DNA of 64,000 nucleotides from Blumeriella jaapii. Its lineage: Eukaryota > Ascomycota > Leotiomycetes > Helotiales > Drepanopezizaceae. The stretch spans positions 1,364,001 to 1,428,000 of the forward strand of contig VWND01000095.1 of the NCBI GenBank assembly GCA_009599575.1. The letters run 5' to 3'. The notes below the pieces were generated by a model that was not told the origin of the DNA, searched no databases, and was given only the letters and a program-made list of their open reading frames with translations. The translations under genes were made by a program, and so were the position numbers. Below are positions 14,816 through 51,026 of this stretch, piece after piece (the first letter of the stretch is position 1; the number at the start of each line of letters is the position of its first letter).

Positions 14816-16902
14816 TCCGCTAAGCCATCGTAAAAATAATGGCTGTTTAATAGCAACCTTTCCGTGCTAGCGATCAGAATTAGCGAAATACTAATTATAA
14901 TAACGATTATTAAAAAAAAAAAGAAAACTAACGCGGGAATCAGAATCGCGGCTATTAAAATAATAAAAGTAATTATTAAAACAAACCTCGTAGTTTTAAA
15001 TGTGAATTTTATAATAATAAAAAAATTCACTGCGAAAAACCTTATATTCGCTTAAAATGCAAAGCATTTAATTTTTATATAAATAATAGTATCTGTTATA
15101 TTAATAAATACGAAGCGATTTGTTTCGGACCGATAAAAGCAGGAATAAGCCTTTTTAACAAAGCTGAAAACCAGAGTTAATTAAACACTATTCGCTTAAA
15201 AATAAAAAGTACGAAATAGAACGATTGCTTGAAAACCAAAAAAATGCGAAAACGATTTTTATTAATAAAAAAAAAACATTCCAAAAAACGTATTAATCAA
15301 AAAGAAAACTTTTATTTTAAATATAAATGAAGTTTAAATATATAAATAAAAGATAAATATATATATTATTAATGCAATTATCGCATTTGCAAATATTATA
15401 ATTGTATAATTAAGCTAGCGAATTATAAAAAAGCAAAATGCTTTTATTTTATTCGTTAAATTAATTAATGTAAAAAAAAACGTTAGAATCGAAAAAAAAA
15501 AAGATTTTGAAATTCGAAAAAAAACCGATAAAATTATTAAAAAAACGCTTATAATAAAAGAAATTAACGATAATATAAAAGATATCGATACCGACATTCC
15601 GATTGAAATTTTTTAAAAAGTACCAGCTTTTAAGCGCTTATTATTAATACGAAGCGAGAAATAAATCGATAAATATATTAGCTTCGAAGCCGTCGACGAA
15701 ACTATTGAAAAAATTATAAAACAGAAAATTAAATTGAAATTCAGCGACTTATTTAGCATAAAAGAAAAATTCGACAAAATTATTAATAAACAAATTTTTA
15801 TATTAAAAAAAAACGAAAAAGTTTAAATCATTTGAGAAAAAAACGATTTTGAATTGGAAAAAAATCAGAAAAAAATTTACAATATCGTAATTAATTTAGC
15901 CGATAAAAAGGAATCTTCGGAAGAAATCAGCCTTTTGGCTTTCGCTATAAAAACTTAAAAATCAAAACGACGAAACTGCTTTTACACAGTTATAAAAGCA
16001 TTAAAAATAAAAACAATGCTTAAGAAAAGTACGACCGCCTTCGCTTTATTCGATAATAAAGCCGAAGTTAATTATACAAACCAGAAAACAGCCGAAACTA
16101 ATAATGTTCCGATTATTACCGATAAGCAAATAATTTATATTATCGTTAATAAAAACACGATTAAATTTAATAAGATTATACGAAATATTAAAATCGACGT
16201 TAAAAATATTATTATTTATAAAAACTTTTTGGTAATAAAAAAATACTTTTATTTTATTATTTTTAAAATGCTTTGGATTTTAAAAAGTTTCGTCAGTTTT
16301 AAATATACCGAAAACGGTCAGATAAAAGCTTTTTTTTAAAACTGAAACCGATTTTTTCAAAATTAAATTATCGTCGCCGGCGACAAAGTTTTTTTAATCG
16401 ACGTTTTATCGGAAAACGAATAGCCGGCTTTAGTTTTAAAACAAACGCTGAGTTATAACAAAACCTGGAAAATACTCGGCTAAAAGTATTTACGTCGCTA
16501 ATCGAAATAGCACCGCGAATAAAATTAGCTAATATTAATATTTTTCGCTATTAATTCGGAAATAAAAATTCCGAAGATTTCGTTTTCGTATTAAACAAAC
16601 CCGATTTATATATTTTATTTTTTTATATTAATATTAATACTTTTTACAAACGCAAAACTAATAAAATACGATTTGTAAATCTTAGCGAATCCGATAAAAA
16701 TATTTCCGAAAAAATAAACGATTGATTTAAGAAAAATAAAATAACAAAATTATTTTAATTAATTATTAGCGAATTCGAAAAACTTATTACCGGCCGATTT
16801 TCCAGCTTATTATTTGGCAGCCGACTTATAAAAAAACGATTTGATAATTTAATAATCGGAACCTAATTTCTGTTAAAAAAGAAAAAGGTTTTATACGAAA
16901 TC
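14816..16902 (+). pseudogene. C1 gag C-terminus and protease
   Basis: Collinear with C2 37842-39900. The open frame 16016-16339 corresponds to a retropepsin-like region: FALFDNKAEVNYTNQKTAE (family D-x-G-A-E-x-N) followed by KIDVKNIIIYKNFLVIKK and FKMLWILKSFVSF. The catalytic D-x-G is now D-N-K, consistent with G-to-A change. A 33-bp repeat lies in the protease to reverse transcriptase linker at 16488-16520. D1 inserted at 16903. Open frames 14659-15030 and 15415-15597 on the minus strand are shadows. Confidence 0.75.
16488..16520 (+). repeat. 33-bp mini-repeat, C site 1 in C1
   Basis: ATTTACGTCGCTAAT...GCACCGCGAAT, 33 bases, in the protease to reverse transcriptase linker. First base is the third position of a codon. 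It reads FTSLIEIAPRI in the C frame. Confidence 0.8.
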
Positions 16903-17166
16903 TGTGACGATCTAATCAGTCGGAGGGCTGGGAGATCAGTCAACTGGTCGCCGTATTTATATGGTATGAGAAACGAGCCTTTGGTTTTATAATAAGATAT
17001 TTATTTAGAATCAACAACTGCAGAAGGCAGAGGTTGCTAAAAAAAAGAGTTTTATATATATGAATAGTTTCTACAGTTGATAAGAAGATTAATCAAGAGA
17101 TCAGAGAGCTTGCAATTACACGTAGTTGCTGGGGTGATACAAGGGGCAAAAGAGTAAGTCGTCATA
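16903..17166 (-). repeat. D1 3' LTR
   Basis: Plus-strand reading starts TGTGACGATCTAATCAGTCGG without its last base and ends AAGTCGTCATA. It aligns end to end with 23247-23509 and with D2 52847-53113. It is less mutated than the 5' LTR. Adjacent inside the element, the minus strand reads GGACGGGAAAGTAA, a polypurine tract. Confidence 0.93.
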
Positions 17167-18990
17167 TTACTTTCCCGTCCGAAAAAAGCGCGCCCTCGAG
17201 CTTTTATTTATTAGTACGTCGTTATTTAAGTGATCGTACGAGTCCAAACCTTCGGAATACGCTTTTAGCCAGTTTATAAATTTTGCAAAAGGACCGGGGA
17301 GCTTTTTATGCGCTAAGTGAAAGTCGCGCATTTTTAAAAAAGCGTATATAAAGTTAGACGCGGGGTATTACGTAAGATTTTTATTTAAATTTATTTAAGA
17401 AGCTTTATATTAAAAGGTTTTCCGCTGCATTCGACAGGCGATTAATTTTTAGATTTCGTATTTAAGCTTATTAATTATATTAATAGATTTAGGGGCTGAG
17501 TTAATTTGATTTGAAAGCGCGTCGTTAGCTGTTTTACGTAATCGATTAGCGTGAAAAATTAAATGTATATTTATAATACTAAAAAGGTCTAGCTTAAAAG
17601 CGTTGTCGAAAATTTTGGCTATAATTTTGAAAAAGCCGTTTGTAAAATTGTCGAGCTTGCGGAAAGGCCGGAAAGTCGGAAATGGACGTATATCGAGCCA
17701 AACGTAGTCGCTAACGTTAAAATCGATCGCGCGGCGAGATTTATTCGCATTTTTTTTTATTTTGTCGTAGGTTTATTAAAGGTGCGATTTGGCGAAGTTT
17801 CAGGCGTCGTAGTGGCGGCGAACGTACGCACGAGTTTCGTTTGCGTTTAATTTGTATAAAAGATTGGAAAAAAAGGAAATATCGAGCTTTTAGTTTTAAT
17901 TGGTATAAGAAATATAATTATATACAATTTTAAAAAATGAAAAGCTATTTAGATTTTCGTAATAAAAAATTATTTAGGCGAAATTTATTATTAAAAGAAA
18001 TTCGCTTTAATCGTTTTGATAGAAATTTACGAAGGGTCGAAAGCGTTTTTGCAGATATTAATTATAAATTTCGGTCTGACCGTCGGTTTCAGAATAAGCG
18101 GCTGTCGAAAGCTTTAGTTGCGTACCGAGTATTTTGTTTAATTCAGACCAAAAAGTAAATTAATACTAAAAGCCACGATCGCTAATAATACTTTTTAGAA
18201 GGCTAAAATATTTGTATACGTGAAATATATATAATTTGGCGAAGTTTCGAACGTCGATATTTTTGTGATAAAAAATCGAAATAATTTATTTGGAAAAGCG
18301 ATTTATTATTACGAATACGTTATTATAATCGTATTTATTTTTATTAAAATTGCAAAAGTTTATTATAACGTATTTTTAAAAATGGTTAAAAACAGAAAAA
18401 AGCTGAAAAAAGCCGGAGCGTTTATTTTTTAAAATAAAACTTTTTCGATAAGCGTAGCAATTGCGATAGTATTGTTTTACGAAAACTGTTATATTTCGCT
18501 AATAGTATTAATCCGAAAGCAATTGCGTAGTTTTGCGAGCGCTAAAATAAGCGGTGGAAATCTGGTCGTGCATTTCTCGTATAAAGGCTAGACGAAGATA
18601 ATCGACGTTTGGTATTATTAAGCGATTGTAATATAGCAGCAGATCGCGTTTAAATATATACGAAATGTTATTATCGTCGTTTTTTTTCGTAGCGTTTCGT
18701 ACAGCTTTTTTTCGAAAGGCTATTAGGCTGCTAGCTGTGCGATTAGCGTAGAAAATTTGATTAATAATACGATCTGCGGAAAAAAAATTAATTATTTTAA
18801 CGATAAAAACAATTGTTTCGAAGGCCGTAAAAGATCGAAGTTTTTTAATTAAAAAGCGGTAATCGATCTGATTTGCTCGGAAAAGGATTTGCAAGCGTTA
18901 AATGCGTTTAAAAAAGTTTTAACGGTCGAGTTCGCTCGTACGACGTGTTAATGCGTTAGCTAAAGGATTATATTTATTTGGTTTATACGT
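17167..18990 (-). pseudogene. D1 integrase and chromodomain
   Basis: The minus-strand frame 18508-18894 encodes the H2C2 entry of integrase; LRLAFIREMHDQISTAYFS carries the His ligands. Downstream on the minus strand the core has SDRGF, FTFWSELNKILGTQL and ETDGQTEIYNQYLQ, which contain the second catalytic Asp and the Glu. A GPY/F-type end leads into a chromodomain-like tail reading NARLSL...KAPRSFCKIYKL in one frame; D2 shows it as MRDFHLAHKKLPGPSAKF. The plus-strand frame 17937-18158 is a shadow of this region. Confidence 0.85.
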
Positions 18991-20520
18991 AATAAAAAAA
19001 TTGTAGTCGGCGAGAAGCTCGGCTTAGCGTGTTTGTCGAGCGTTTAAAAATTTGAAAATTATAAAATATTCCAAAGTTTTATAATTAGTAATTATTTTGA
19101 TTTAATAAATTAAGCTAGCTAATTCAATACGAAAATTATTTAGAAATCTTACGATTGCGAGTATTTTTTTGTCGTATACGACGTAGTTTAGCTTTGCGAA
19201 AGCTATGGTTTTGCTGAAATAAGCGATTGGAAGCCAATCGTCGTTATAAAATTGCGAAAGCATAAAAGCTATTACGCCGTCGAAAGCGTTAGTTTTTAAT
19301 ATACAAAAAAGGTTTTGCTTATAATATTATAAAACTGATGTAATAATAAAGGCTAGTGTAAAAAGATCGAAATTTTTTTGATATTTAAAAGTGAAATTGT
19401 AAAAAACGTTAGCTTTGATTAAATAAATCAGAAGCTTTGCAATTATATCGTAGTCTCGAATAAAACGTCGGTAAAAGTTACAAAAACCAAAAAAGTTTTG
19501 TATATTTTTTATAATAGTAAAAGATTTTTAATAAGCGATTACGAAGACTTTTTTTGAATTTATTTCTAGGCTTTTAATCGAAATAATAAAACTTAGGTAA
19601 CGGATCCGAATAACGTTAAATTTAGATTTTCGAATATCGGCTTGTAATTTAGCGTTAGCGAGCTTTTAAAGTATTTTGCGAACGTATATAACGTGTTTTA
19701 AAAAGACGAATAAATAAAAATGTTATTTAAATATGCAATGCAAAAATCGTTTAAATAATCGAAAAAAACGTCGTTTATATAACGTTAGTAAATTGCGGAT
19801 TTATTAGTAAAACTAAAAGATAGCATTTTGCATTTATAAGCGCCGTAACGCGTACGAAACGTCGTTAGTTTTTTATTAACGGAGTTTATTCGGATTTTGT
19901 AAAAAGCTTAACGAATATCGAGCTTCGTAAAAATTCGCGCTTTCGAAAAACGAGCAAAAGTTTTATTGATAAAAAAAAAAAGATAGCGATTTTTATAAGT
20001 AACGTTATTAAAAGTTCGATAATCGATACAAAAACGCAATAAACCGTCGGGTTTTTTAACGAAAAACATTGGAACAGCGAAAAAAACGGTAAAAAGTTCG
20101 ATAAAGTTTTTATTAAAATTATTTTGCAAATAGATTTTGATAATTTCGAGCTTTAGAATCGATATTTTATATAAAAAAGTGTATTTTAGCTTTTTTTTAT
20201 TTATAATAAATTCGATTTTATGGTCGTAAGGCCGGTGAAAGGCTAGCTCGTTACTGGCGGCTTTAGAAAATACGTGTTCGAAGTTTTTGTACTTCGGAAG
20301 GAAAGATTCGAGAAAAGGTTTATTCGAAGTTAGCTTTGCTAAGCTGATTGAAAGGGTCGAAATCGATATTTTATTAGTTTTGAAACGTTCGAAAAAATTA
20401 TAAAATTGAGTTTTAAAAAAAATATTATACGTAAAATAGTTTAATATTTTGTCGATTTCGTACAGGAAAGTTAAGAACATTTTAATTGCTTTTTTTCTGG
20501 AAATTAGCTTAAAAGCGTAT
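18991..20520 (-). pseudogene. D1 reverse transcriptase and RNase H
   Basis: The 190-codon minus-strand frame 19908-20480 has the entry of a Ty3/gypsy reverse transcriptase: NELAFHRPYDHKIEFI, AVPMFFVKKPDGLLRFCIDY, RTFNNVTYKNRYLFFFI and KARIFTKLDIR. The catalytic box lies about 19695-19740 and reads CIAYLNNIFIYS, so both Asp of YxDD are Asn, each a G-to-A change on the coding strand. RNase H follows toward 19000 in fragments. D2 shows the same YLNN box. Confidence 0.9.
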
Positions 20521-20792
20521 ATAATAATTTGGCAGATAAAAATTGGGTAAATAGTAAATTAAAGGATTCGTTTTCGAATTGGTCGTTTGAAAAATTTAAA
20601 AAATGGCTTATTTGAATTATCGATTATATTAAGCTGAAAAGTTATCGCGGCGAAAGTTTTTTTTCGGTTTTTAATATAATTGTTTTTCGTAAAACGAAAA
20701 AGCTGTTTTAACGAAAAAAAAAAAGAAAAAAAAAAAATAATAAAAAAGGAATCGGTAATTTAGAAAGATAATATAATTTTTTGTATTATTTT

Positions 20793-20825
20793 ATTAGCGT
20801 CGCTATCGAAATTGGCACCGCGAAT
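20793..20825 (+). repeat. 33-bp mini-repeat in D1
   Basis: ATTAGCGTCGCTATC...GGCACCGCGAAT, 33 bases, in the protease to reverse transcriptase region of D1. Relative to D coding (minus strand) it is in the opposite orientation to the family C copies. It shares no other similarity with C that I can see around it. Confidence 0.78.
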
Positions 20826-21374
20826 GAAATTCGATCTTTTCGCGCTTCGCATAGCGTCGTAGGCCTGTTATAATTGATTAAGGTTTTTATTACGTTTTAC
20901 AGCGTCGTTTTAATAGCGAAATTAAATTTTTCGAAGGTGCAAATAAAAGATTTTAATACAACGAGCGTAAAAGGCTGTGGAAGGGTAAAATTTCGGCTAA
21001 TAAAGCTTGCGTTTATTACAGTTTAGTAAAACTTGATATTCGGCCAACCAAGCTTTTTTTAAATTATATTATGATTTTCGAGGTTGATAATTAAAAAAAA
21101 AATAAACGATTGTATTCGATTATTAATAATAAAATTAAAAAGCGTAAAATATATAATTAAATAGCTACGAGTTTTATTATACTTTTTTATAAAAAAAAAG
21201 CCGGGAAAGGTTAAATTAAAAGTTTTAAAAAAAAAGAAAAGGATTTGATTAGCGCCGAATCGATTAACGCATAACCGTTCGCTTTAAAGTCGGCGAGCGC
21301 TTTTATTTTGTACGAAAAGCTATTTTTAATAAATGTAACGGGAATTGTTAATAAATCGCTATTAAAAAGCTTTC

Positions 21375-21576
21375 TGTAACAGAGAAAGGTGAAGTCAAAG
21401 ATGATTCATTGTTTGTGCCGTAAGGGCTGTTTATGTAGTATGAATGTTCTAATGCTATGGAAGGTGCGAGCCTTCTGATTATGAATGATGACGGTAATGA
21501 CTTGTAGTCATGTCGTCATCATAGTTATTCCTGTATATTCTTGGGATGTTTTATACATACCCGTAATTGTGTAACA
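21375..21576. repeat. F: solo LTR inside D1, TSD CTTTC
   Basis: 202 bp starting TGTAACAG and ending TGTGTAACA, with CTTTC at 21370-21374 and 21577-21581. Base composition is balanced and CpA sites are intact, in sharp contrast to the mutated D1 around it. Read on the minus strand it contains GTATGTATAAAAC near its start, a possible TATA region, so the parent element may run minus. I see no other member of this family in the window. Confidence 0.88.
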
Positions 21577-23246
21577 CTTTCGAATGTTAAAATAACGTAT
21601 ATCGCGTAATACGTTTAAAAAAAAGGCTTTGCTTAGATTTGAGCGTTTTTCCGATTGGCGGAAAAGCTTTCGATTTTTTCGTATGCGTTTTGAAAATCGT
21701 TTGAAAAAGGATTTTCGTTTTTATTATTATTATTAAAAGGCGAATTTTCGGCCGGTTCGACCTCGTTTATATTTATCAGCCTGAAAGGGCTTTTGGGTGG
21801 AACCGAAGATCGGCTCGTAAAAGGTCGCGCAAATTAGCTTTTTTGAATTTTTTAATATGGAATAAAAAACGAGCGTTGTCGTTGGTCCGATCGAAAAGGA
21901 AAAACGCTAGGAAAAGCGTTTTGGCGTGGAAAAGAAGGAAAAACAAAAGGTTAAGAAGGAATTTATAAAGCATTTGAACGATTTTCGTACGTACGATTTG
22001 ATTCGTAATACGTTTTAATTAAAGATTTATTATTTTAATAAATAATAGACTTGATTGAAAAGCGATTCGCGTATAAAATTCGTTTAGCTAATTGATTTTA
22101 TTTTTTTTGACGAACGGCGGTAAGCCAATCCTTGAAAGTCGTTGTACGCGCTTATTTCAAATGCAGCTTTTTTTATAAACGTTTTAGTATTTTATCGCGA
22201 AAAGCGTTTCGAAGCTGTTAATTAATTCGTATTTAAGCGTTCGCTGCGAAAATGAAAAATCGTAAATAAAATCGCTAAAAATCGTCGTGCGTATTTATTA
22301 TAAGCATTTTAAATTCGTTTTCGGTTTTTTAAACGTCGGAAAAATCGGCTAGGAAATCGGCGATTTTTTTTATTAATTTTTCGGAAGGTATAAAATCGGA
22401 ACGGTTTAAAATACGCGGGGTAAAAAACTTTTTCGCTACGCTTTCGGTCTGATCGAATATGTAATTTTTGCGAAATCGATCGCTAGCGAAATAGTCGTAG
22501 TAAAGTTCGAGGTTGTCGAGAATTTTAGTTTTTTAATAGCGTGTTTTATAATTTTTATTATTATTTAGTTTAAATTTAAGATTCGGAACGCGTTTTATAC
22601 GAGCTAGTCGAAAATTAGCAGATAAATAGGAATTATAACGTTTAAAAGGCGCGCTAGAGTTTTGGCCGTTATAAAAAAATTTAAAAAAAATTCGCGAAAA
22701 GCGTAAAAATTGATTTGTAGCGTTTGTTGGTTGGAATAAAACGTTGCGAAAAAATGGAACAGCAAATTCGCGATTGGCAGAAATACGTTCGATAGATTTT
22801 ATTAAACGCTTTGATTAAAAGGTTTGTCGCAGTCGTATAGTTTCCAAAAGTTGTCGTTTACGCTTTTGCGTTTTTTTTAGTTGATTTTGCAAAAGTTTTA
22901 ACTAAACGTTTTTAGCGTTAGGCTGTAAAAAAAAAGTGGCAGGCGAAATGGTTAGCGCTTTGCTTTTTCTTTTGTTTTTTTTTTTTCGGGGGAAGAATTG
23001 TTTTTCAAAAAAAAAAGCTTCTGGGGGAGGCTGCTTTTTCGCTGATTAAAAAAAGGGAAATTAAGGTGTAATAGCAGAAGCTGAAAAGCTTTGCTAAAAA
23101 AGGGATCGTTAAACAGGAGCTATTTTTCGCAAAATGCGGAAATAAGCTTTTTTACGACCGGTCGATTATTTTGGTATAATCCGTGAAAAATTCGAGAAAA
23201 AAGATAGTTTACGCCGTCGCTAGCGTAGAAAAAAAGTTGTTGATAA

Positions 23247-23509
23247 TATAACGATTTAATTAATCGGAGGGCTAAGAAATCAGTTAATTGGTCGCCGTGT
23301 TTATATAATATAAAAAACGAGCTTTTGGTTTTATAATAAAATATTTATTTAGAATTAACAATTGCAAAAGGCAGAGGTTGCTAAGGAAAAAAAGCTTTAT
23401 ATATATGAATAGTCTACAGTTGATGGAGAGACTTATCAAAAGACCAGGGAGCTTGTAGCTACACGTAGTTGCTGGGGTGACACGAGGGGCAAAAAAGTGA
23501 ATCGTTACA
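23247..23509 (-). repeat. D1 5' LTR
   Basis: Plus-strand reading begins TATAACGATTTAATTAATCGG and ends GTGAATCGTTACA. It is the partner of 16903-17166. Differences between the two are transitions wherever I compared them. Confidence 0.93.
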
Positions 23510-23514
23510 AAATC

Positions 23515-30988: not shown

Positions 30989-31248
30989 TGTCACAGCTAG
31001 CTTAAGAGTGATCAGAAGGATAATATGGACCAAAAGGTACGCATATAAATTGAAAAAAAGACACCGAGCTAGAATGCTCGGGGTCGCGAATTTTATGTAC
31101 AGTGGGTTGCGCTTGTGGGTCACGTGACTTAGCGCGAGGCCTAGTGGCCGAGGTGGTCCGTGCCCAAACCTTAATCCAACACCACCAGCATTCACCACCA
31201 GCATCCATACCACTGGCAACCATACCACTGGCAACCAGGATCGTAACA
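30989..31248 (-). repeat. A2 5' LTR (260 bp)
   Basis: Plus-strand reading TGTCACAGCTAGC to AGGATCGTAACA. It is the better preserved A LTR and keeps the CA end. It contains tandem copies of CCACTGGCAACCATA-type sequence at 31205-31240. Several open frames over it (30918-31127, 30986-31234, 31002-31295, 31102-31317) do not correspond to genes. Confidence 0.95.
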
Positions 31249-31500
31249 GTTTTAGCTATAATTGAGGCATGGACCCCTCCGAGACCCCTTGCCACTGACT
31301 ACCTTCAACAGGTATAAAAGCAAAACACTTTCTTAAATAGTACTATAAGCACGCAGTCCAATTCATACTTTCACTTATTTTTCTTTTTCTTTTTTTAGTT
31401 TTTTCTAGGGATTCTTTAAATTATTTTATTCACCGACATATGGCCGTATCAGTTTGGTTTTTCTATTTATTTTTATATTTGATAACCTACGCAGGAATTC

Positions 31501-31726
31501 TGTTACGATCCTGGCCGGTGGTAAATTGCCAATGGTAATTGCTAGTGGTAATTGCCAGTAGTAATTGCCAGTGGTAGGATTAAGGTTTGCGCACGGACCC
31601 TTACCAACCTGTATTTAATAGTTCAAAGCTCCCGTACCTTAGAGCTCTTCACCTTAGTATTCAACGTACACGCGTATCTTTCGGCCCATATCATTCACCA
31701 TGATCACCCTTAAGCCAGCTGTCACA
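31501..31726 (+). repeat. H 5' LTR (226 bp)
   Basis: TGTTACGATCCTGG to CCAGCTGTCACA. It contains about four tandem copies of a 13-bp unit of the type TAATTGCCAGTGG at 31523-31575, as do family A LTRs. Confidence 0.95.
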
Positions 31727-34375: not shown

Positions 34376-34690
34376 GATCACAACCGATTATACCCGGTTG
34401 CAAAACCGGGTATACACCGATTTTTACCCGGTTGCAAAACCGGGTATACACCGATTATAATCGATTTCAAAACCGATTATACACCGATTATAATCGAATT
34501 AAAACCGGTTATAATCGGTATATAATCGATTATAATCGGTGTATAATCGGTTTTAAACCGGGTATAATCGGTTGCTAATCGGTGTTAATACCGAAGTGGC
34601 GCGGTTTACTCTTACATCGATGTAACGATTTAACACCGAGTATAATCGGTATTACCGAATATAATCGGTGTTAATACCGATTATACTCGG
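34376..34690. repeat. Palindrome array at the left end of I1
   Basis: A dense series of the 14-bp perfect palindrome CCGATTATAATCGG and variants (ACACCGATTATAATCGG, CCGGGTATA, ACCGAGTATAATCGGT), spaced so that long hairpins can form on either strand. Mirrored at 63490-63820 in I2. Confidence 0.92.
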
Positions 34691-34816
34691 TGTTAACACC
34701 GAAACAAATCTATACAACTAAATTAAATCGATATTTAATATATACCAAACTTTTCGAATTTAAATTAAAAATCTTATATTAAACTACGTTTATTTAATAC
34801 TATATTTAATAATATT

Positions 34817-35340
34817 TTCGCTGCCACCACCTCGCTGCCACCACCTCGCTGCCACCATATCGTCGCCACCACCTCGTCACCATCATCATCACCACCACCA
34901 CTACCACCCACTACCCACCACTATCATACCACACTACCACCACTACCACCACTACCACCACCACCATTATTACCACCACCACCTCGCTGCCACCACCTCG
35001 CTGCCACCACCTCGCTGCCACCATATCGTCGCTACCATCTCGTCGCCACCATCATCACCACCACCACTACCACCACTACCATCATTACCACTACTACCAC
35101 TATTACCATTATTACCACCACTACTATTATTATCACCATCATCACCACTACTATTATTATTTTGCTGCCACTACCTCGCTGCCACCACCTCGTCGCCACC
35201 ACCTCGTCGCCACCACCATCATCACCACCATCACCACTACCATCACCACCATCATCACCACTACTATTACCATCATTACCACCACCACCACCACCATTAT
35301 CACCACCACCTTCCTGCCACCATTGTAATTATTTAGCTTA
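34817..35340. repeat. I1 C-rich arm: 14-bp and CAC-triplet tandem repeats
   Basis: Repeats of the 14-bp unit CACCACCTCGCTGC and its CTCGTCGC variant, alternating with (CAC/CAT/TAC) triplet runs. The open frame 35162-35449 is a Pro/Ser/His repeat translation, not a gene. CpA sites are abundant, so this arm has largely escaped the mutation seen outside. Confidence 0.92.
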
Positions 35341-36866: not shown

Positions 36867-37585
36867 AGGTGGTGGTGATAGTGATAATGGTGGTGGTGGT
36901 GGTAGTGGTGGCGACCAAATGGTGGCAGCGAGGTGGTGGCGACGAGGTGGTGGCAGCGAGGTGGTGGCAGCAAAATGATAGTAGTAGTAATGATGGTGGT
37001 GATGATGATGGTAGTGGTGGTAATAGTGATAGTGGTGGTAGTGATGGTAATGGTGGTAATGGTAGTGGTGATGATGGTGGCGACGAGGTGGTGGCGACGA
37101 GATGGTGGCAGCGAAGTGGTGGCAGCAAAATGATAGTAGTAGTAATGATGGTGGTGATGATAATGGTAGTGGTGGTAATGGTGATAATGGTGGTAGTGAT
37201 GGTAATGGTGGTAATGGTAGTGGTGATGATGGTGGCGACGAGGTGGTGGCGACGAGATGGTGGCAGCGAGGTGGTGGCAGCAAAATGATAATAGTAGTGG
37301 TGATGGTGGTGATGATGATGGTAGTGGTGGTAATGGTGGTAGTGGTGGTAGTGGTGGTAGTGGTGGTAATGGTGGTAGTGGTGGTAGTGGTGGTAGTGGT
37401 GTGGTAGTGGTGGTAGTGGTGGTAATAGTGGTGGTGGTGGTGGCGACGAGGTGGTGGCAGCGAGGTGGTGGTGGTAATGATGGTGGTGGTGGTGGCGACG
37501 AGGTGGTGGCAGCGAGGTGGTGGTGGTAATGATGGTGGTGGTGGTGGCGACGAGGTGGTGGCAGCGAGGTGGTGTTAGCAGTGAA
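36867..37585. repeat. I1 G-rich arm: GGTGGTGGCAGCGA tandem repeats
   Basis: The inverted counterpart of the C-rich arm: 14-bp GGTGGTGGCAGCGA units and runs of GGTAGTGGT. Within it, three blocks of about 155 bp (near 36950, 37105 and 37260) are tandem higher-order repeats beginning GGTGGCAGCAAAATGATA. GG-rich spacing could form G-quadruplexes. Open frames on both strands here are Gly/Trp/Val or His/Pro repeat translations. Confidence 0.92.
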
Positions 37586-37841
37586 ATGGTATTAATAAAA
37601 GCGTAGATAAAAGGTAATAATAGAATTACAACAAATTCGTATAAGATTTGTATTTTTCTCGAAGTTTTAAATTATTACACAACCTATTGTATCTATTAAT
37701 CTTTAATAATACTAAAATTAATTTTCATTTAATCGCGTGTTAACTCTGATTATACTCGGAGTTAATTTTACGCCAAGTGTTAACTCGGATTTGACTCGGT
37801 GTTAAATCGGTTGTAATCCCATCCACAGGCGCCCCTAAGTA

Positions 37842-39900
37842 ATAGCTGCCCAATAGCAACCTTTTTGTGTTAGCGATTAGAATCAGCGAAATATTAATTA
37901 TAATAACGATTATCAAAAGAAAAAAGAAAACCAACGCGGAAACCAAAATCGCGGCTATTAAAATAATAAAAATAATTATTAAAACAAACCCTATGGCCTT
38001 AAATATAGGTTTTGTAATAATAAAGAAATTTATTGCGAAAAATCTTATATTCGCTTTAAATGCAAAGCATTTAATTTTTGTATAAATAATAGTATTTGTT
38101 ATATTAACAAATACGAAGCGATTTGCCTCGGATCGGTAAAAGCAGAAATAAGCTTTTTTAACAAAACTGAAAATTAAAACTGGTTAAATATTATTCGCTT
38201 GAAAATAAAAAATACGAAATGAAACGATTGTTTGGAAAACAGAAAAAATGCAAAAACGATTTTTATTAATAAAAAAAAAATATTCCAAAAAGCGTATTAA
38301 TCAAAAAGAAAACTTTTATTTTAAACGTAAATGAAATTTAAATATATAAATAAAAAATAAATGCATATATTGCTAATGCAATTATCGCATTTGCAGATAT
38401 TATAGCTGCATAATTAAGCCAGCGAATTATAAAAAAGCAAAATGCTTTTGTTTTATTCGCTAAATTAATTAATATAAAAAAAAACGTTAGAATCGAAAAA
38501 AAAAAAAAGATTTTGAAATTCGAAAAAAAAAAACCGATGAAATTATTAGAAAAACGCTTATAATAAAAGAAATTAACGATAATATAAAAGATATCGACAC
38601 CGATATTCCGATTTAAATTATTCAGAAAGTACCAGTTTTTTAAGCGCCTATTATTAATGCGAAACGAGAAATAAATCGACAAATATATCAGCTTCGAAGC
38701 CGTCGACGAAGCTATTAAAAGGATTATAAAACAAAAGATTAAATTGAAATTCAGCGACCTATTTAATACAAAAAAGAAATTCGACAAAATTATTAACAAA
38801 CAAATCCTTATATTAAAAAAAAACGAAAAAATTAAAATTATTCGAAAAAAAAACGATTTTAAATTAAAAAAAAAACAAAAAAAAAATTTATAATACCGCA
38901 ATTAATTTAGCCGATAAAAAAAAATCCTCGGAAAAAATCAGCCTTTTGGCTTTCGCTATAAAAATCCAAAAATCAAAACGACGAAACTGCTTTTACACGG
39001 CTATAAAAACATTAAAAATAAAAATAATACTTAAGAAAAGTACGACCGCTTTCGTTTTATTCGATAATAAAGCCGAAATTAATTGCATAAACCAAAAAAC
39101 GGCCGAAGCTAATAAGATTCCGATTATTATCGACAAACGAATAATTTATACGACCGTTAATAAAAATATTATTAAATTTAATAAAATTGTACGAAATATA
39201 AAAGTCGACGTTAAAAATATTATTATTTATAAAAACTTTTTGATAATAAAAAAATGCTTCCATTTTATTATTTTTAAAATGCTTTAGATTTTAAAAAATC
39301 TCGTTAGTTTTAAATACACCGAAAACGGCCAGATAAAAGCTTTTTTTTAAAACTAAAACCGATTTTTTTAAAATTAAATCACCGTCGCCGACGATAAGAT
39401 TTTTTTAATCGACGTTTTATCGGAAAACAAATAGCCGGCTTTGGTTTTAAAACAAACGCTAAATTATAACAAAACCTGGAAAATACTCGGCTAAAAGCAT
39501 TTACGTCGCTAATCGAAATAACACCGCGAATAAAATTAGCTAATATTAACATTTTTGATTATTAATTCGGGAATGAAAATTCCGAAAATTTCGTTTTTGT
39601 TTTAAACAAATCCGATTTATATATTCTACTTTTTTATATTAATATTAATATTTTTTATAAGCGCAAAGCTAAAAAAATACAATCCGTAAATCTTGGTAAA
39701 TCCGTTGAAAATATCTTCGGAAAAAAAAACGATTGATTTAAAAAAAATAAAATAACAAAATCATTTTAATTAATTATTAGCGAATTCGAAGGATTTATCA
39801 CCGGCCGATTTTCCAGCTTATTATTTGACAGCCGATTTACAAAAAAACGATTTAATAATTTAGCAATCGGAACCCAATTTCTGCTAAAAAAAAAAAATTT
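37842..39900 (+). pseudogene. C2 gag C-terminus and protease
   Basis: Collinear with C1 14843-16902. A Cys-rich stretch near 38000-38110 in one frame may be the nucleocapsid zinc-binding region. The open frame 38946-39287 carries the protease: FVLFDNKAEINCINQKTAE, then IPIIIDKRIIYTTVN and VKNIIIYKNFLIIKKCFHF. The D-x-G triad is D-N-K. The minus-strand frames 38338-38901 and 39057-39263 are shadows; their length is an artefact of A-rich plus-strand sequence. Confidence 0.78.
39499..39531 (+). repeat. 33-bp mini-repeat, C site 1 in C2
   Basis: The copy orthologous to 16488-16520, ATTTACGTCGCTAAT...ACACCGCGAAT, with one transition relative to C1. Confidence 0.8.
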
Positions 39901-41370
39901 TTATACGAAGTTTTACGCAACCGAAAAAAAGCTATAGCTTTCGATTTCACCGAAATAAGCCAATTCAGCTTTAACGTTACGTTTTATATCGATATTAAAA
40001 CCGTGCTTTACGAGGCCTGGCAAAAAAAAACCTTTTCAGTTTTTAAAGCCTTTTAAAATAAAATAGTCGAAATGTTAAAAAAACGAATTAAATAAAAGAT
40101 TTTCGAATTTTGCTACGGCTTATATAAAAATAAATGGTTTATCGTTGCGAAAAAAGAAAAAAGCATTTACAAATTTATTATCGCAATCGTCGAAATAAAC
40201 AAAATAACGATACGAAACGCCAACGTGTTATTTAACGTCGATTAATTTTTAAACGAATTCGCAAAACTGACGATCGCTTTTTTTTTCGATTTGTTTTTCG
40301 GCTACGACCATTTAATACTTAATCTACGATTTCGAAATATAACGGCAATTTAAATATTAATCGGTTTATTACGCATAACGAAAATACTTATAAAAGCTAT
40401 TAATTTAATCGCTTAATTCGTAAAAATCGTATATAAAGTTTTTATAATTTGCATTTCTGATATTGCTTTTTTTTACGTTGACGACGTTGGAATGAAAAGC
40501 TTTAAATTATATTATAATAATAAAAAAATTCTTTTTGAAATTCGACGTTATATAATAAAATATATTTAAAATATCGATAAAATTATGATTTGCTTCGAAA
40601 AAGCTAAAGCTATTATTGGCCTTCGATTAAAATTTTGCATGCCCGAAATAAATATCGTTGGTTATATAATTAATAACGCTGGCCGCTATTTTCAACGAAA
40701 GAAAATTAAAAAGATTTGCGAATGGAAAAAGTATAAAAATATTATCGAAGCCAAAGCTTTTATTAGCGTTGTTATTTATTACCGCAATTAAATTAAAAAC
40801 TTTTTTTAGAAAGCTGCATTTATTTACGTTACGATAAAAAAAAAATCGATTTCGTTTAGAAAAAAAAACAAAGCAAAATTATAAAAAATTTTAAAAACGA
40901 TTTTTTATCGGTCTTATCGCTTATTCGAATCGATTACAGCTTAAACGCAGAAAAAATTATTTTGATTATCGACGTTAGTATTTTCGGTTAAAAAGCTGTA
41001 TTATAATAAATCGATAAAAACAAAAAACGGCATTTTTTACGATTCGAAAGCGGCTTATAATTTTTCGCGGAAATACGTTATAATATTATTAAACGAAAAT
41101 ATTAAAACGTTTTTAAAATAATAAAAAAGATAAAAAGCGAATTGTACGGCGTATATTTTATTTTGAAAACAAACGCAAAATTTTTTATCGACTAATTAAA
41201 TAAAAAAACTAATGATTTATTAAAAGCGTTCGTTATTAATTAAATAGCTTGGATGCGATTTATAAATTTCGAAATCAGATATATTAAAAAAACAATTAAT
41301 ACAGCGGCAAACGGCCTTTTTAAACGAAAACGTTTTTATTCGTTTAATTTCGCTAAATAAAACGAATAAA
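39901..41370 (+). pseudogene. C2 reverse transcriptase and RNase H
   Basis: Reverse transcriptase of a Ty3/gypsy lineage distinct from A, B, D and E. It reads FEFCYGLYKNKWFIVAKK, DLFFGYDHLIL and the catalytic box FFYVDDVGMK at about 40467-40496, with both Asp intact. The open frame 40585-40791 continues with ICFEKAKAIIGLRLKFCMPE, INIVGYIINNAGR and KNIIEAKAFISV, the thumb region. RNase H (about 40960-41370) shows RFESGL, YGVYFILKTNAK and TAANGLFKRK. Stops at former Trp and Gln codons break it. Confidence 0.88.
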
Positions 41371-41443
41371 ATATCGACGAATAAATCGCTAACGAAATCG
41401 GCTGCTTTGTTATTTGCGCTTTGAATTTTATAAAGCCGAAATT

Positions 41444-41476
41444 ATTCGCGTTGCTATTTCGGCTGGCATCGCGAAT
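41444..41476 (+). repeat. 33-bp mini-repeat, C site 2 in C2
   Basis: ATTCGCGTTGCTATT...GGCATCGCGAAT, with 7-bp inverted ends ATTCGCG/CGCGAAT. First base is a third codon position; reads FALLFRLASRI. Confidence 0.88.
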
Positions 41477-41506
41477 AAAAAACACCGATTTTCGGGCCGA
41501 AAAAGC

Positions 41507-41539
41507 ATTCGCGTTATTATTTCGATTGGCACCGCGAAT
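41507..41539 (+). repeat. 33-bp mini-repeat, C site 3 in C2
   Basis: ATTCGCGTTATTATT...GGCACCGCGAAT, 63 bp start-to-start from the previous copy (21 codons), in the same reading phase; reads FALLFRLAPRM. Confidence 0.88.
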
Positions 41540-42890
41540 GGATTTAACCGAAAACGATCGGAATAAGCCGATTAACGACGAAAATAAACTTTTAATCGAT
41601 AATTACAAAACCGAGAATTTTTATTTAATCGTATATTATTTAATTATTTTATTTAAATTATTTAACGTGCCAAATTATTAATTTAAATTATTTAAAAACC
41701 AAGCTTTCGATTATATTTTAGCCGATAAAAAGCTATATAAAATAAAAAACAATATATATTAAAAACGCTTAATAGTAAATAATAAGGCCGACAAGTTTTA
41801 AATTATAAAAAAAGCCTACGAAAAAGTGTTTTATAAGAAAACTAAAGTTATTTATCACCGAATCAAAAATAATTTTTAATAAAAAAAATGCTTCGAAAAT
41901 TGCAAAGCTTTCGTTAAAAGCTGCGTTTTTTGCTAAAAACGAAAGCTTGGCCGAAAAAAAAACTTATTATATTCGACGTGGTTTTCTGGAATTTAAAAAA
42001 AAATTAACTTCGACGTTATACGCGTATTAATTACCGATCGCGGTTATATATGCTTTGTATTCGCTATTAACGATTTATTTAAATGATTTAAAAAGCGATT
42101 TTTTCGAAACGTTATTTCCGAAATTATAGCGATTTTTTTTTGGAAAAACGTTATATATCGATACGGTTTATTTAGCAAATTAAACGTCGATAATAAATCC
42201 GAAAACAAAAGCGTTATCGAAACTTTTATAAAAAAATACGGCATTTAGCGTATTTAAATTTTAGTTTATAATTCGAAAAGCAACGGATCCGTTAAACGAA
42301 GTTATAAAAATATTTTCGACGGCCTTTTAAAAGTTATTCGAAAGGGCTATAAGCGTTAGTCGCGGAAATTCTCGAAAATACTTTTTATTATACGTATATA
42401 TATACACGCTTTTACTGAAATAATTTTATTTTTTATTTAGTACGGCAAAAACGCTCGACTGCTTTTAAAAATAAAATAGCTTGTATAAAAATTTTATAAC
42501 GTAATTAAAATAAAAACGAAAGCAAACTTATTAGCGATAAGATTTAAATAGCTAAATTACCGCGATATAAATATAAAAAAAATAATTTTAAGAAAAAAAA
42601 AATATAAAAAAGCAGTTAAAAAAGTCTGAGATAAAATTAAAGTTTAAAAAAAAACGCTAATTAAAAAAAGAAATCTAGTTTTAATTTACGACGTTTAACG
42701 CGTTATTAACAAATCGGCCGATATTAAGTTTAATTATAAATAGCTCGGATTTTACGAAGTATACGAAGCCGAGTTAAATAAAAGTTATTATAAGCTTACG
42801 GAATTCGATAAAACAAAACTAAAAAAAACGTTCGCCGCTAACCGATTAAAGCGATTTTACAAAAAAAACTAACAAATTTATTTTTTAAAT

Positions 42891-43440
42891 TCTAAATTAA
42901 ACAGCGACTTCGATTTTAGCGATTTCGACGACGATTCCGATCAAAGCGATTATATTTTTAAAAAAAAAACCTTTTGAAAAAGTCTGAAAACAACCGAACG
43001 ATAACTCCGTTGCTAAAAGCATAATTCAAATCGTAATTTCATTTATAACCGAAAAAAAAAAATTACATACAAAATTATTTATTAACTGTTTTACTGTTTT
43101 TATTATTTATTATTTTCTTTTTTATTATATATTATTTTATTATTTTTTGTTTTGCTTTGCTTATATATAATTTAATTATTTTGTTTTATATATATTGTTT
43201 ATTGTTAAAACCTTTTTTTATATTATTTAAAACACTTATTGTATTTTTTTTTGTTTAATTGTCTTTTTGTTTATTAAAACAAAAGCTTTGTATATATTTA
43301 AGCCGCATATTTAATACATTTTTATTATTCGTATATTTTACGAAAACTATCTTTTATACATTTTATTATTTGCTACTTTTTGTATTATTTATTTTTTTCG
43401 TTGTTTTAAACGAGTATTTATTTAAATAATTATAATTTAT
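42891..43440 (+). other. AT-rich spacer after C2 integrase
   Basis: Very T-rich (runs such as TTATTATTTTTTGTTTTGC), no coding potential. The same spacer is at 49171-49600 in C1. It separates pol from the 3' region and could be the 3' untranslated part of pol or a promoter for a second transcript. Confidence 0.55.
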
Positions 43441-46400
43441 TAAAAAAACAGCAGGCGGATTCCCGTGACTTTTGAATACAAATATTTTACAATTTCCGTA
43501 TTTTTTCCCAACTATTTTTTAATAAATATAATACACTTTTTTAATTAATAAATTTATTAATATTATATCGTTTTTTAAGCAAAGCGTTGCTAAACCTGGC
43601 AAACTTGTTTTTAATTTATTTTAAAACGAAACTATTATACGTAATCTTTTCGAATTTAAGCAAATATATAATACCGCCATTTTAAATTAATAAGCAGCTT
43701 TTGTAAAAATATTTATAAAATAATTCGATATAATAATTAAAAACGTTAACGAATTTTTATTCGATTACGAAAGTTTTATTAAAATTAAATTCGTTTGCAA
43801 AAGCTTTAATTATAATAAATTTTTATTAAATTACGACAACGCTTTAAAAGCTTTCGCCGGAGCAAAAAAAACTCGAGATAATAAAAAAGAAATGACAGAC
43901 CGGGTTTTGCGCTTTTTGCCAAATTAACAAAAAAAAAATATTTAAAAATACGTTTTTAATAAAATCATCGGTATTATTTCGCTTCGGCATTTCGCTCGCT
44001 TTTTCGAGATTATTATTTTTATTAAAAAAAAATTTTAAATATTAAACGCTTATATTTTTAAGGCGCAAACTCTGAAAGCTAATAATTTAAAAATCCGCAG
44101 ATTTATAAGCTTTTTTATAATTGTTTGCAAACTGATCGACGACGTTATATAATCGTTAAAAAAAAGTTTTAGTCGGTTGCGAAATTCTAAATTTAATTTT
44201 TTTTTAAAACAAAAAATTAAGCGTCGCCAAATGCGGCATTTTTATATCGAAGAAAAAAAACGACGCTATTCCGATATTTTAAATTTACGACGATAAAAAA
44301 AACGAAAAAGCTAATATTATTTTCGTTTAGTTCGAAAAAATATACGCGATAGCAATTAATATTTTTAAAACAGCTAAAATAATTCGGCGATTTTTATTTT
44401 TAATTATCGAAAACGAATCCGAAAACGAAATTAAAAGCGTAATAGCAAACAATCGTTTATTCGAATATAAAAAACTTATTATATTTATGGAAACTATTCC
44501 GAAAAAAGTAAAAACAAAAAACGTAAAAAAACGCGCCGATATTTTCGAAATCTTTTTTATTCGGAAAAAAAAATTATTCGCGTCGTTAGCAAAAAAGGCA
44601 TCGCGAATGAAAACAGCCGGAAATCGACGCCGAATTATAGCTTTTAAGCTAATTAATAAAAAACGCGACGATTTTACGAAATCAAATTTAAAAAACGCCG
44701 GTATTTCGAAAAAAAAAAACTTAAACGATTTTGAATTTGATTTTTCGAAATTAAATACGCAAATATTAAAAACGCTTGCTGCGTTTAAAAACGTCGTACT
44801 ATTATCGTTAATATTTTAGATTTTAATAAAAGCATTTAAGATTTCGATTATTATACGATTCGATCGAAAAAGCTTAAAAAAAAATATCGAAATTATCGCG
44901 GAAAAAATTATATAAAAAACACAAAATCAAATTATTTTGCTTAAAACTTTCGTTTTCGACGACGAAACGATTCAAAAGTTTTATTTCGATACTTTTATAT
45001 AAAAATCAAATAAATCCGTCAGCTTTTTTTTTTTTGCTTCGAACGAAAATTAAATTAAGTTTTTTTCGAAAGATTGCAAATATAATACGTCGGAACAAAT
45101 AAAAAAAATTTTTAAAAACGATAATCCGTTTTTACTTAAGTTTTTTTTCGCTGAAAAACTTCGATTTTTTAATTTCGTTTTTACGAATAACGTTAACGTT
45201 AAAAAAAACGGCAAATTTTATTATTTTTATATACGTTATTACGCGGCGTACTGCGATTTAATTACAAAAAAAATCGACGTTATCGGTTTTGCTAATCGAT
45301 TCGCTGTTATTAAAAATTCGGATTACGACGTGTTCGAAATTAATTTTAATAATCAGTTTATATTCCGACGAAAAACTGCGAAAATTATTTAAACGCGTAT
45401 TAAAATTTATTTAGGCTACGCGAATTTTAAAACAGATTTTAAAGCTTTTAGCGCGATTATAAAACTCGATTAAAACAAAAAAAAATAAAAGCAACAAGTA
45501 TTTTTAAAAGCCGACTTTTTTGGCTTTTCGACCGAAAATATATTTTAAAATCTATTTGAACTAAGCTGCGAATTCGTTAATTACGTAAGGTTTTATAACG
45601 GAAAAAACAAGCTATTATTATATTTTATAAAAAAAAAATAGTTATATACAAATACTATTTTCGATTCGTTAAAACCCAAAGGGCGCTTATAGTTTTTTTC
45701 GCTAATATATTTTACAATTTTATTTAATAAGCTTTTAAAATGCATTTCGGATTTTATTTCGCTGCTTTAATTATTCGGAATTTTAGAAACTGCTGCTTCG
45801 TAGCATATTTTAACGTTCCGATCGCTTTAGGTTTCGCTGATCCCGACCGTATTATAATTATAAAATTCGATATCGCCGATTTTTAAAAAAAAAAAAAAGA
45901 TCGAAGATTTTACCGACGCTATTTTCGATTATTACGTTCTGCTTGCATTCGCATAAAACTCGAAAATAATCGAAGCTTATTTGCAATTATATTACGACGC
46001 CAAGCTAATTAAAATTATTTAAAAAAGCCTAGCTTTTTCGTATTTCAGCGCGTTTAAAACAGTGGCTTTAGCTATTTTATCGGATTACGAAACCGAAAGC
46101 TACGAAATAAAAAATAAAATAACTTTTGTTAGCTTTTCGATTAAGCAAAAAGTTTTCGTCAGATTTAAAACCTAAAAAACCGACGGCGCGATATTAATTT
46201 ATTCGAATAATTATACGGCGCAGAAATATAAAAATTATTTCGAAAACAACGTTCCGATAAATAATCTGATATTGTTTATTTTGCGACGAAAGCAATTACA
46301 GCATTTTCGGTGGTTTCGATTGCAAACGATTATTTTCGAATCATTTCGTGAAATAATCTTTTTTACAAGCTTCGAAGCTTTTTTAAAAATATTCGTCGGT

Positions 46401-46750
46401 AAATAATCGTGGTCCGATTTATTAGTTTTACGCGAAGCAAAAGCGTTGATCGGTTTCAATTACGATAAATTAATCGATTATTTTTACGATTTTAATATAA
46501 AAATTTTCAGCGCTTTTTGCAAAGCGTAGAATCACGTTTAAGCTGAAATTTATTATCTACGGAAAAAAATCGTAAAAAGCATCCGTCGCGGCGATATTTA
46601 ATAATATTATCGACGAAAAGGCTATTAGAACGTTCGTAAAACAAAACGATACTTCGATTAATATTTTATCGAGCTATTTTTTAAAAAAGCAGAATAAACA
46701 AAATGATTCAAACGATAAGCGAAACGCTATTTCTTTATAAAAGCCAATAG
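43441..46750 (+). pseudogene. C2 3' extra coding-like region, function unknown
   Basis: About 3.3 kb downstream of integrase with protein-like stretches in shifting frames, collinear with C1 49600-52846. Examples are NYDNALKAFAGAKKTRDNKK and FISFFIIVCKLIDDVI near 43830-44160, the 110-codon frame 44487-44819 (KRADIFEIFFIRKKKLF, SRMKTAGNRRRIIAFKL), FYYFYIRYYAAYCDLITKKI near 45220 and ILIYSNNYTAQKYKNYFENN near 46190-46250. Typical Ty3/gypsy elements have nothing comparable here except occasional env-like or accessory genes. I recognise no domain and will not assign one. A copy of the 33-bp repeat lies at 44576-44608. Confidence 0.6.
44576..44608 (+). repeat. 33-bp mini-repeat, C site 4 in C2
   Basis: ATTCGCGTCGTTAGC...GGCATCGCGAAT, inside the open frame 44487-44819 in the same codon phase as the other C copies; reads FASLAKKASRM. 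Confidence 0.82.
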
Positions 46751-46918: not shown

Positions 46919-47185
46919 TATAAAACGGTAATACTTTGTATTAATAAGAATTGGTAGTTTTAGCTATAGTTAAGGCATGGATCTTTCCGAGACCTTTTGC
47001 TATTAATTATTTTTAACAGGTATAAAAGCAAAACACTCTTTTAAATAATACTATAGGCACGCAGTCCAATTCATACCTTTATTTTTTTTTCTTTTTTTTT
47101 TTTCAGTTTTTTCTAGGGATTTCCTAGATTATTTTACCCACCGACATGTGGCCGTATCAGTCTGGTTTTCCTATCTACTTTTACA
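46919..47185 (+). repeat. C2 3' LTR (267 bp)
   Basis: TATAAAACGGTAATACTTTG to CTATCTACTTTTACA. It is followed by the TSD TTAC and C1 sequence. It contains the conserved TTTTACCCACCGACATGTGG block shared by all C LTRs. Confidence 0.94.
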
Positions 47186-47592
47186 TTACGATTTAAAAGC
47201 GGCTTATAATTTTTCGCTAAAGCACGTTATAATACTATTAAACGAAAATATCGAAGCGTTTTTAAAATAATAAAAAAAATAAAAAACGAATTATACGGCG
47301 TATATTTTATTTTAAAAACAAACGCAAAAGTTTTTGTCGACCAATTAAATAAAAAAACTAATAACTTATTAAAAGCGCTCGTTATTAATTAAATAGCTTA
47401 GATGCGATTTATAAACTTCGAAATCAGGCATATTAAAAAAATAATTAATACGGCGGCAAACGGCTTTTTCAAACGAAAACGTTTTTATTCGTTTAATTTC
47501 GCTGAATAAAGCGAATAAAATATCGACGAATAAATCGCTAACGAAATCGGCTGCTTTGCTATCTGCGCTTTAGATTTTATAAAGCCGAAATT

Positions 47593-47655: not shown

Positions 47656-47688
47656 ATTCGCGTTATTATTTCGGCTGGCACCGCGAAT
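47656..47688 (+). repeat. 33-bp mini-repeat, C site 3 in C1
   Basis: ATTCGCGTTATTATT...GGCACCGCGAAT; orthologous to 41507-41539. It looks identical to the copy at 47593, which suggests little mutation or recent homogenisation. Confidence 0.88.
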
Positions 47689-49600: not shown

Positions 49601-50417
49601 ATATGCGAATTCCCGTGACTTTTAAATACAAATATTTTATAATTCCCGTACTTTTTTCCAATTATTTTTTAATAAATACAACGCATTTTTTTAATTAACA
49701 AACCCATCGATATTATATCGTTTTTTAAGCAAAGCGTTATTAAACCTGGCAAATTTATTTTTAATTTATTTTAAAACGGAATTATTATACGCAATTTTTC
49801 CGAATTTAAATAGATATATAATACCGTTATTTTAAATTAATAAGCTGCTTTCGTAAAAATATTTATAAAACAATTCGATATAATAATTAAAAACGTTAAC
49901 GAATTTTTATTCGATTATAAAAGCTTCGTTAAAATTAAATTCGTTCGCAAAAGCTTTGATTACGACAAGTTTCTGTTAAATTACGACAACGCTTTAAAAG
50001 TTTTCGCCGAAGCAAAAAAAGCTCGAAATAACAAAAAAAAAATAATAAACCGAATTTTGCGTTTTCTGCCAAATCAACGAAAAAAAAATATTTAAAAATA
50101 CGTTTTTAGTAAAATCACCGGTATTATTTTATTTCGGCATTTCGCTCGCCATTTCGAAACTATTACTTTTATTAAAAAAAAGTCTGGATACTAAACGCTT
50201 AAATTTTTAAAACGCAAGTTTTAAAAGCTAATAATCCAAAAGCTCGTAGATTTACAAGCTTTTTTACAGCTGTTTGCAAATTAATCGACGACGTTATATA
50301 ATCGTTAAAAAAAGTTTTAATCGGCTGCGAAAATTTAAATTTGACTTTTTTTTAAAGCAAAAAACTAAGCGTCGTTAAATGCGGCATTTTTATACCGAAA
50401 AAAAAAAACGACGCTAT

Positions 50418-50684
50418 TGTAAAAGTAAGTAGGAAAACCAGACTAATACGGCCACATATCGGTGGGTAAAATAATCTAGGGAATCCCTAGAAGAGACTGA
50501 AGAAAGGAAAAGAAGAATAAGTAAAGGTATGAATTGAACTGCGTGCCTATGGTACTATCTAAGAGAGTGCTTTGCTCTTATACCTGTTGAAAGTAGTCAG
50601 TGGCAAGGGGTCTCGGAAGGGTCTATGCCTCGACCATAGCTAAAACTACCAACTCCCATTAATACAAAGTATCACCGTTTTACA
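50418..50684 (-). repeat. Solo LTR of family C, inverted, TSD CTAT
   Basis: 267 bp, plus-strand reading TGTAAAAGTAAGTAGG to ATCACCGTTTTACA, flanked by CTAT at 50414-50417 and 50685-50688. C2 at about 44265-44280 (GACGCTATTCCGATAT) is the empty site. It is the least mutated C LTR and keeps both TGTAAAA and TTTTACA ends, an inverted heptamer. It probably arose by recombination between the LTRs of a full element. Confidence 0.95.
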
Positions 50685-50993
50685 CTATTCCGATATTTAA
50701 ATTTACGACGACGAAAAAAACGAAAAAACCAATATTATTTTCGTTTAATTCGAAAAAATATACGCGATAGCAATTAATATTTTTAAAACAGCTAAAACAA
50801 TTCGACGATTTTTATTTTTAATTATCGAAAACGAATCCGAAAACGAAATCAAAAGCGTAATAATAAATAATCGATTATTCGAATACAAAAAACTTATTAT
50901 ATTTGTAAAAACGATTTCGAAAAAAATAAAAACAAAAAACGCAGAAAAGCGCGCCGATATTTCCGAAACTTTTTTTATTCGAAGAAAAAAACT

Positions 50994-51026
50994 ATTCGCG
51001 TCGCTAACAAAAAAAGCACCGCGAAT
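50994..51026 (+). repeat. 33-bp mini-repeat, C site 4 in C1
   Basis: ATTCGCGTCGCTAAC...GCACCGCGAAT; orthologous to 44576-44608. Confidence 0.82.

Follow-up and report, generated by a model that had tools for sequence, protein, structure and literature searches.

The subject of this study is a 33-bp motif with inverted ends that recurs within the retrotransposon polyproteins of a 64,000-nucleotide stretch of the genome of the ascomycete Blumeriella jaapii (contig VWND01000095.1, positions 1,364,001 to 1,428,000), the whole of which is referred to below as the window. Its hosts are two retrotransposon families, here termed C and D. Family D shows matches on the minus strand to the reverse transcriptase (RT), ribonuclease H (RNase H), H2C2 and Tf2-1-like SH3 domains, and on this predicted domain content it is classed as a Tf2-like long terminal repeat (LTR) retrotransposon of the Ty3/gypsy group. 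On the plus strand, family C gives an RNase H match above the cut-off, weak matches to the integrase H2C2 and integrase-core domains and, by eye, a YVDD motif; it is 34% identical to a polyprotein of 1204 residues (P0121) across 99% of the queried part. Judged by these similarities, family C is a high-copy Ty3/gypsy LTR retrotransposon represented by dead copies, the LTRs of which were not located. Its long extra 3' region (44028-45800) contains open frames and has no Pfam match.

The preliminary description of this DNA had listed nine copies of the motif, and all nine were recovered at the coordinates given in Table 1, far above the level expected by chance. They fall into five sites, and the arrangement first proposed holds: four are in family C, namely site Q in the protease-RT (PR-RT) linker, sites P1 and P2 in the RNase H-integrase linker and site T in the extra 3' region, and one is in the unrelated family D, where the motif runs opposite to the direction of coding, the domain matches of D being on the minus strand. 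The motif consists of two inverted arms of 12-13 bp separated by a loop of 7-8 bases. The 7-bp inverted ends ascribed to all nine copies are exact (ATTCGCG...CGCGAAT) in six of them, whereas the left end reads ATTTACG, with two mismatches, at 16488 and 39499, and ATTAGCG, with one, at 20793. In 30 first-order Markov windows the chance level for such ends was 0.0 for exact matches and 0.1 when up to one mismatch was allowed, as against 6 and 7 observed. The D site is recovered in the window at E = 1.6e-6 by a profile built without D. Its inverted end is weak: in 40 distinct D copies, the fourth base of the left end is never C, and three of these copies read ACTGGCG. At the PR-RT site, the left end is ATTTACG in 17, ATTCGCG in two and ATTCGCA in one of 20 fetched copies (L073-L092). 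As a separate observation, positions 4-5 and 9-10 of the motif in these 20 copies alternate between CG and TA, and in none of them are both CG.

Table 1. Copies of the 33-bp motif in the window and the retrotransposons that carry them
Feature	Coordinates	Strand	Remarks
Motif, site Q	16488..16520	+	PR-RT linker; C-family copy interrupted by D
Motif, family D	20793..20825	-	Antisense to C sites relative to coding
Motif, site Q	39499..39531	+	PR-RT linker; family C copy 1
Motif, site P1	41444..41476	+	RNase H-integrase linker; family C copy 1
Motif, site P2	41507..41539	+	Family C copy 1; 63 bp past P1
Motif, site T	44576..44608	+	Family C copy 1; within extra 3' open frame 44331-44816 (162 aa)
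Motif, site P1	47593..47625	+	Family C copy 2
Motif, site P2	47656..47688	+	Family C copy 2
Motif, site T	50994..51026	+	Family C copy 2
Family D element	16903..23505	-	Tf2-like Ty3/gypsy, inside a C copy; terminal repeats 16907-17162 and 23251-23505, 84% alike
Family C copy 1, part	37837..46429	+	RNase H, integrase H2C2, extra 3' region; heavily mutated

Any judgement of how well the motif is conserved has to take into account the mutational state of this DNA. The dinucleotide composition of the window is of the kind left by repeat-induced point mutation (RIP), with observed/expected ratios of 2.62 for CpG, 0.57 for CpA and 0.60 for TpG, and 39.5% of all C and G in the window are located in CpG. 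In the motif ends of the eight C-site copies, C and G occur only as CpG (6/6 or 8/8), and in the D copy 6/7 do so. Since C-to-T mutation spares CpG here, the near-perfect match between dead copies of a site is no sign of selection, and only the comparison between sites counts for conservation. We therefore compared the sites in a purine/pyrimidine code, RIP being incapable of turning a purine into a pyrimidine. In this code, the arms of P1, P2, Q and T show no pairwise difference in 150 comparisons, against 18/48 in the loop; the variable columns number 0/25 in the arms, 5/8 in the loop and 39/60 in the flanks. Inclusion of D adds differences at a single column of the arms (4/250 comparisons). 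That the motif might mainly owe its appearance to RIP, its CpG-only ends surviving mutation and hence seeming ultraconserved, is thus a very improbable account, and one refuted as a full explanation: the CpG content of the ends and of the window speaks for it, but it covers the conservation between copies and not the match of five sites in a code to which RIP is blind, a match that persists in the profile built without D.

The same comparison bears on whether the conserved entity is nucleic acid or peptide. The four-fold degenerate third positions are variable in none of six cases (p = 0.003 against the flanks, 0.01 without P2), and the division into conserved and variable parts follows the stem and the loop of the predicted hairpin. 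As the arms are devoid of transversion-type differences at all codon positions, and as family D carries the motif in antisense and in a different phase, these data support conservation at the level of nucleotides rather than of the peptide; the third positions are held while three central codons change, which makes a protein constraint unlikely. The likeness is not sharply bounded, in that 5/12 upstream and 8/12 downstream columns beyond the 33 bp are also invariant in purine/pyrimidine code at the C sites, and because of this weak similarity the copied segment may once have been longer. When P alone is modelled, the match to Q is better in reverse (E 0.003) than forward (0.82, and in part only), as if the loop were inverted relative to the arms. 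Among the matches listed between C and D, those of T with D (39 bp, 82%) and Q with D (35 bp, 86%) stand out, the others being by eye A/T-rich low-complexity sequence or a C fragment within the D slice. A plain 63-bp tandem duplication as the origin of P1 and P2 was considered and is unproven, their flanks differing at 7/20 and 10/20 positions in purine/pyrimidine code.

The frames of the C sites were taken from the matches to RNase H/H2C2, from the 162-residue open reading frame of the 3' region and from the PR-RT part of a relative. In agreement with what had been described, the first base of the motif is a third codon position at all C sites (39499, 41444, 41507 and 44576). This equality of phase has a chance probability of 1/9 to 1/27 or higher by simple arithmetic, and it is weak evidence because the 33-mer at 41444 has no stop in any frame, though in one frame its last base and the flank together form a stop. 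Insertion of the motif is in frame and free of stops. In family D, the antisense motif begins at codon position 1, reads IRGANFDSDAN and lies in a linker just after the conserved C-terminal stretch of gag.

The single phase at all C sites, together with the occupation of the PR-RT and RNase H-integrase linkers and a peptide likeness that extends a few residues past the 33 bp, would suit a protein feature, namely a repeated linker or protease-cleavage peptide of the form K-P/A-F-A-S/L-L-x-x-x-A-P/S-R-M-K at polyprotein junctions. We consider this explanation improbable. Besides the invariant four-fold third positions and freely differing central codons noted above, D yields a different peptide off the opposite strand, and the strict peptide pattern is absent from all 240 related proteins, 120 of them C-type and 120 D-type (the best 120 of 169 and of 351 hits, respectively; some do not cover the linkers). 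A loose pattern, FA-7-R[MIL], matches 29/240 of these proteins (e.g., FAIVAEPIYRL), by eye in RT/RNase H-type sequence or other non-linker stretches. The earlier preference for a DNA-level element over a peptide is therefore upheld by the constancy of the arms, the antisense and differently phased copy in D and the lack of the strict peptide in relatives.

Local alignments reach the motif stretch in three of the 120 D-type relatives, one of which spans the motif and has other sequence there. By one measure, the RNase H-integrase linker has 72 residues in C; it could be measured in 23 of 120 relatives, for which the median is 36, and the range of 23-107 in these relatives takes in the value for C, and linker length is accordingly not decisive as proof of insertion. 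At the PR-RT site, no clean gap of 11 residues against the relatives was seen by eye. To the extent that protein alignments can tell, these relatives are without the motif, yet no clean 33-bp empty site emerges from them. We also observed that, at the place in the RNase H-integrase linker that is taken up by P1 and P2 in C, the C-type relatives P0121, P0122, P0124 and P0126 have in common an SPA[RQ] motif, which P0123 does not have.

The distribution of the motif was examined in the source genome of 47,372,573 bases in 91 contigs. A pattern with exact ends occurs at 1083 places, the reversed control at none, and the exact-end places listed (53 distinct, all on contig 1) show, when inspected by eye, loops of the family C types. 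The D-type pattern, with one mismatch allowed, was found at 316 and 297 places, the controls again at none. Copies of the sites were fetched by their flanking sequence without use of the motif, from the 40 best matches per search, and diverged subfamilies could therefore be missed. With the query itself excluded, the motif is present in 11/11 copies at P1 and P2, 20/20 at Q, 9/9 in D and 11/11 at T, the left ends being decayed in two of the last; empty sites number zero among these 51 flank-fetched site copies (9 D, 11 P, 11 T and 20 Q). P1 and P2 are likewise present in all five further C copies found with P0121 (5 fetched of 38 scored candidates, 75 matches). At C76, the continuity of the alignment to P0121 had suggested a C copy lacking P1 and P2; when fetched, this copy proved to contain them both, the gap being shortened by sequence that is absent farther along.

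Copies outside C and D were sought in several ways. Two patterns in which the motif is accompanied by flank bases foreign to C occur at 2 and 6 places, and at all eight the motif stretch aligns to a C copy; five of these stretches are C nearly throughout, and L093, L094 and L098 pass from C into other repeats. A relaxed pattern that excluded C-like and D-like flanks gave no place in the genome, within the reach of flank filters, which miss sites with chance C- or D-like flanks or more diverged motifs. When a profile was run on the window and 143 kb of loci, the matches below E = 1e-3 had loop types of C or D only. Viral contigs contained no occurrence of the motif pattern, and the four stretches obtained from them with a protein query were not confirmed. 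Within these limits, and at the stringency used, the motif is confined to five types of site in two retrotransposon families: every copy examined has it there, and the searches revealed no other location.

The preliminary description had likened the motif to the in-frame Rickettsia palindromic elements (RPEs); on such an explanation it would be a selfish mini-element that inserts itself in frame, perhaps one now extinct. The sharp 33-bp unit, the inverted ends, the occurrence in both orientations relative to coding and the length in a multiple of three are what such an element would display. Against this, the 47.4 Mb yielded, at the stringency used, only two host families and five site types, the flank-fetched copies and the five C copies found by protein include no empty site, and the eight atypical places are all C. 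Taken together, the restriction to two families, the fixed sites, the lack of an empty site and the identity of the atypical places leave mobility without support, and the RPE-like explanation is quite improbable. The behaviour of the motif is that of a component fixed in two retrotransposon families, not that of a mobile mini-element.

The main rival to the explanation we favour below, and one to which we accord a modest chance, is that the motif acts in cis as a functional nucleic-acid site, whether as a stem-loop of the genomic RNA or as DNA recognized by a dimeric protein. In such a site the half-sites would be constrained while the spacer would be free in sequence and fixed in length, orientation would be nearly irrelevant and the antisense copy in D would be permitted. 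The invariant arms, the free loop and the length of 33 at all nine window sites are consistent with this, as is the result of a search for the half-sites with a longer spacer (9-38; shorter ones were not searched), which gave a single place in the genome, a T-type copy one base longer. The predicted RNA folds are divided. That of P1 has an energy of -14.2 kcal/mol and a z of -3.46, with 0/200 shuffles as good. Low values of z were also obtained for a further copy of P1 (-2.58), for both T copies (-2.14 and -3.12) and for one Q copy (-1.96), so that z is -1.96 or lower in 5/10 folds. The other five fail to improve on shuffled sequence; these are the fold of Q at 16488, that of P2 in copy 2 and the three of D (z +0.34 and +0.63 in sense). 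Moreover, the arms are identical rather than covarying, with no compensatory changes, and no Rfam family scores above the gathering threshold in the window. The copies being mutated, no function is readable from them, and they cannot separate passive copying from a cis-acting site. A more specific candidate, an internal primer-binding site, was rejected. Primer-binding sites begin with TGG, as does the right arm of some motif copies; there is no tRNA gene in the window, no Rfam match and, by eye, nothing similar beside the terminal repeat of D.

The explanation we prefer, with confidence that is evenly balanced, is that the motif is a quasi-palindromic segment that was copied at the nucleotide level inside family C, was captured once in antisense by family D and has been passively carried since. 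The segment would have been copied to four linkers of C before the amplification of that family, probably by template switching of the reverse transcriptase. Stem-loops are prone to such switching, and it could also account for the antisense orientation in D and for the loop of P1/P2, which appears inverted. One antisense copy would have been captured in a linker of the unrelated family D before D was in turn amplified. The motif is carried along passively as its parent retrotransposons multiply. The insertions were tolerated because they are in frame, stop-free and located in variable linkers. Several points weigh against this explanation. No intermediate or donor of template switching was seen; the constancy of length in both motif and loop resembles a constrained site more than it does passive copies; the symmetry of D is poor, as its sense folds indicate; and, given the similarity past 33 bp, an older and larger duplication with selection on its core is possible. 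A bolder version, in which the motif would be a protein-coding palindrome of the eukaryotic nucleus, a stem-loop unit that hops between the linkers of one retrotransposon, and even into an unrelated one, through template switching during reverse transcription, with exact arms and a loop that inverts or changes, is rather unlikely in our estimation.

The window contains other repeats. A repeat of 230-280 bp, apparently a separate small element, occurs in both orientations at 46921-47188, 50415-50682, 12872-13138 and 31248-31479, two of its copies sitting at breaks in the C-family alignment. The two copies of a direct repeat (31501-31726 and 32449-32674) agree at 99.1% identity and have suffered far less mutation than the window's other long repeats; they resemble a young pair of terminal repeats. 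Short palindromes of the ACCGATTATAATCGGT / CGGTATACACCG kind form arrays at 34381-34700 and 63487-63818, the two places being partly 78-89% alike, and 14-bp tandem units (TCGCTGCCACCACC and its reverse complement) lie at 34801-35300, 36867-37600 and 61983-63400, where they are intermixed with CAC/TAC-type triplet runs, the orientations being opposite.

The motif, then, is genuine and unusual and exists at the level of the DNA, but its positions are fixed. A compact dyad unit in the linkers of a fungal retrotransposon, found also in antisense in an unrelated one, would point to an exchange of small modules among retroelements. The case also carries a warning, in that CpG-only motifs in RIP-mutated genomes look ultraconserved for mutational reasons. 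A literature search, with most subscription papers outside its reach, found no such unit described for a nuclear retrotransposon of fungi.

Several known systems invite comparison. The hairpin elements of fungal mitochondria (double-hairpin elements and GC clusters) are, like the motif, short hairpin-forming repeats, but they are by description mitochondrial, whereas the motif is on a contig of more than 1.4 Mb and within LTR retrotransposons. The RPEs and the palindromic repeats of Wolbachia share with it palindromic DNA read in frame within protein-coding genes; as characterized in the portion of the literature consulted, RPEs are about 150 bp long and occur in many unrelated genes (PMC10969869), and stand-alone protein-coding palindromes have been described in Rickettsia, Wolbachia and an archaeon (cited in PMC2996958). 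The motif differs from RPEs in its 33 bp, its restriction to two retrotransposon families, its fixed sites and the absence of empty sites among the copies seen. The palindromic amphipathic repeat coding elements (PARCELs), as outlined in their description, are tandem repeats of 25 residues (75 nt) that match DUF285-type models, are tied in some taxa to mobile elements and occur in microbial eukaryotes too (PMC2996958). No DUF285-type Pfam match was obtained in the C and D pieces searched. PARCELs and the motif are alike in being coding repeats with dyad symmetry in the DNA; as far as that description goes, the motif stands apart from them as a dispersed unit of 11 codons with conserved nucleotide arms in place of an amphipathic protein pattern.

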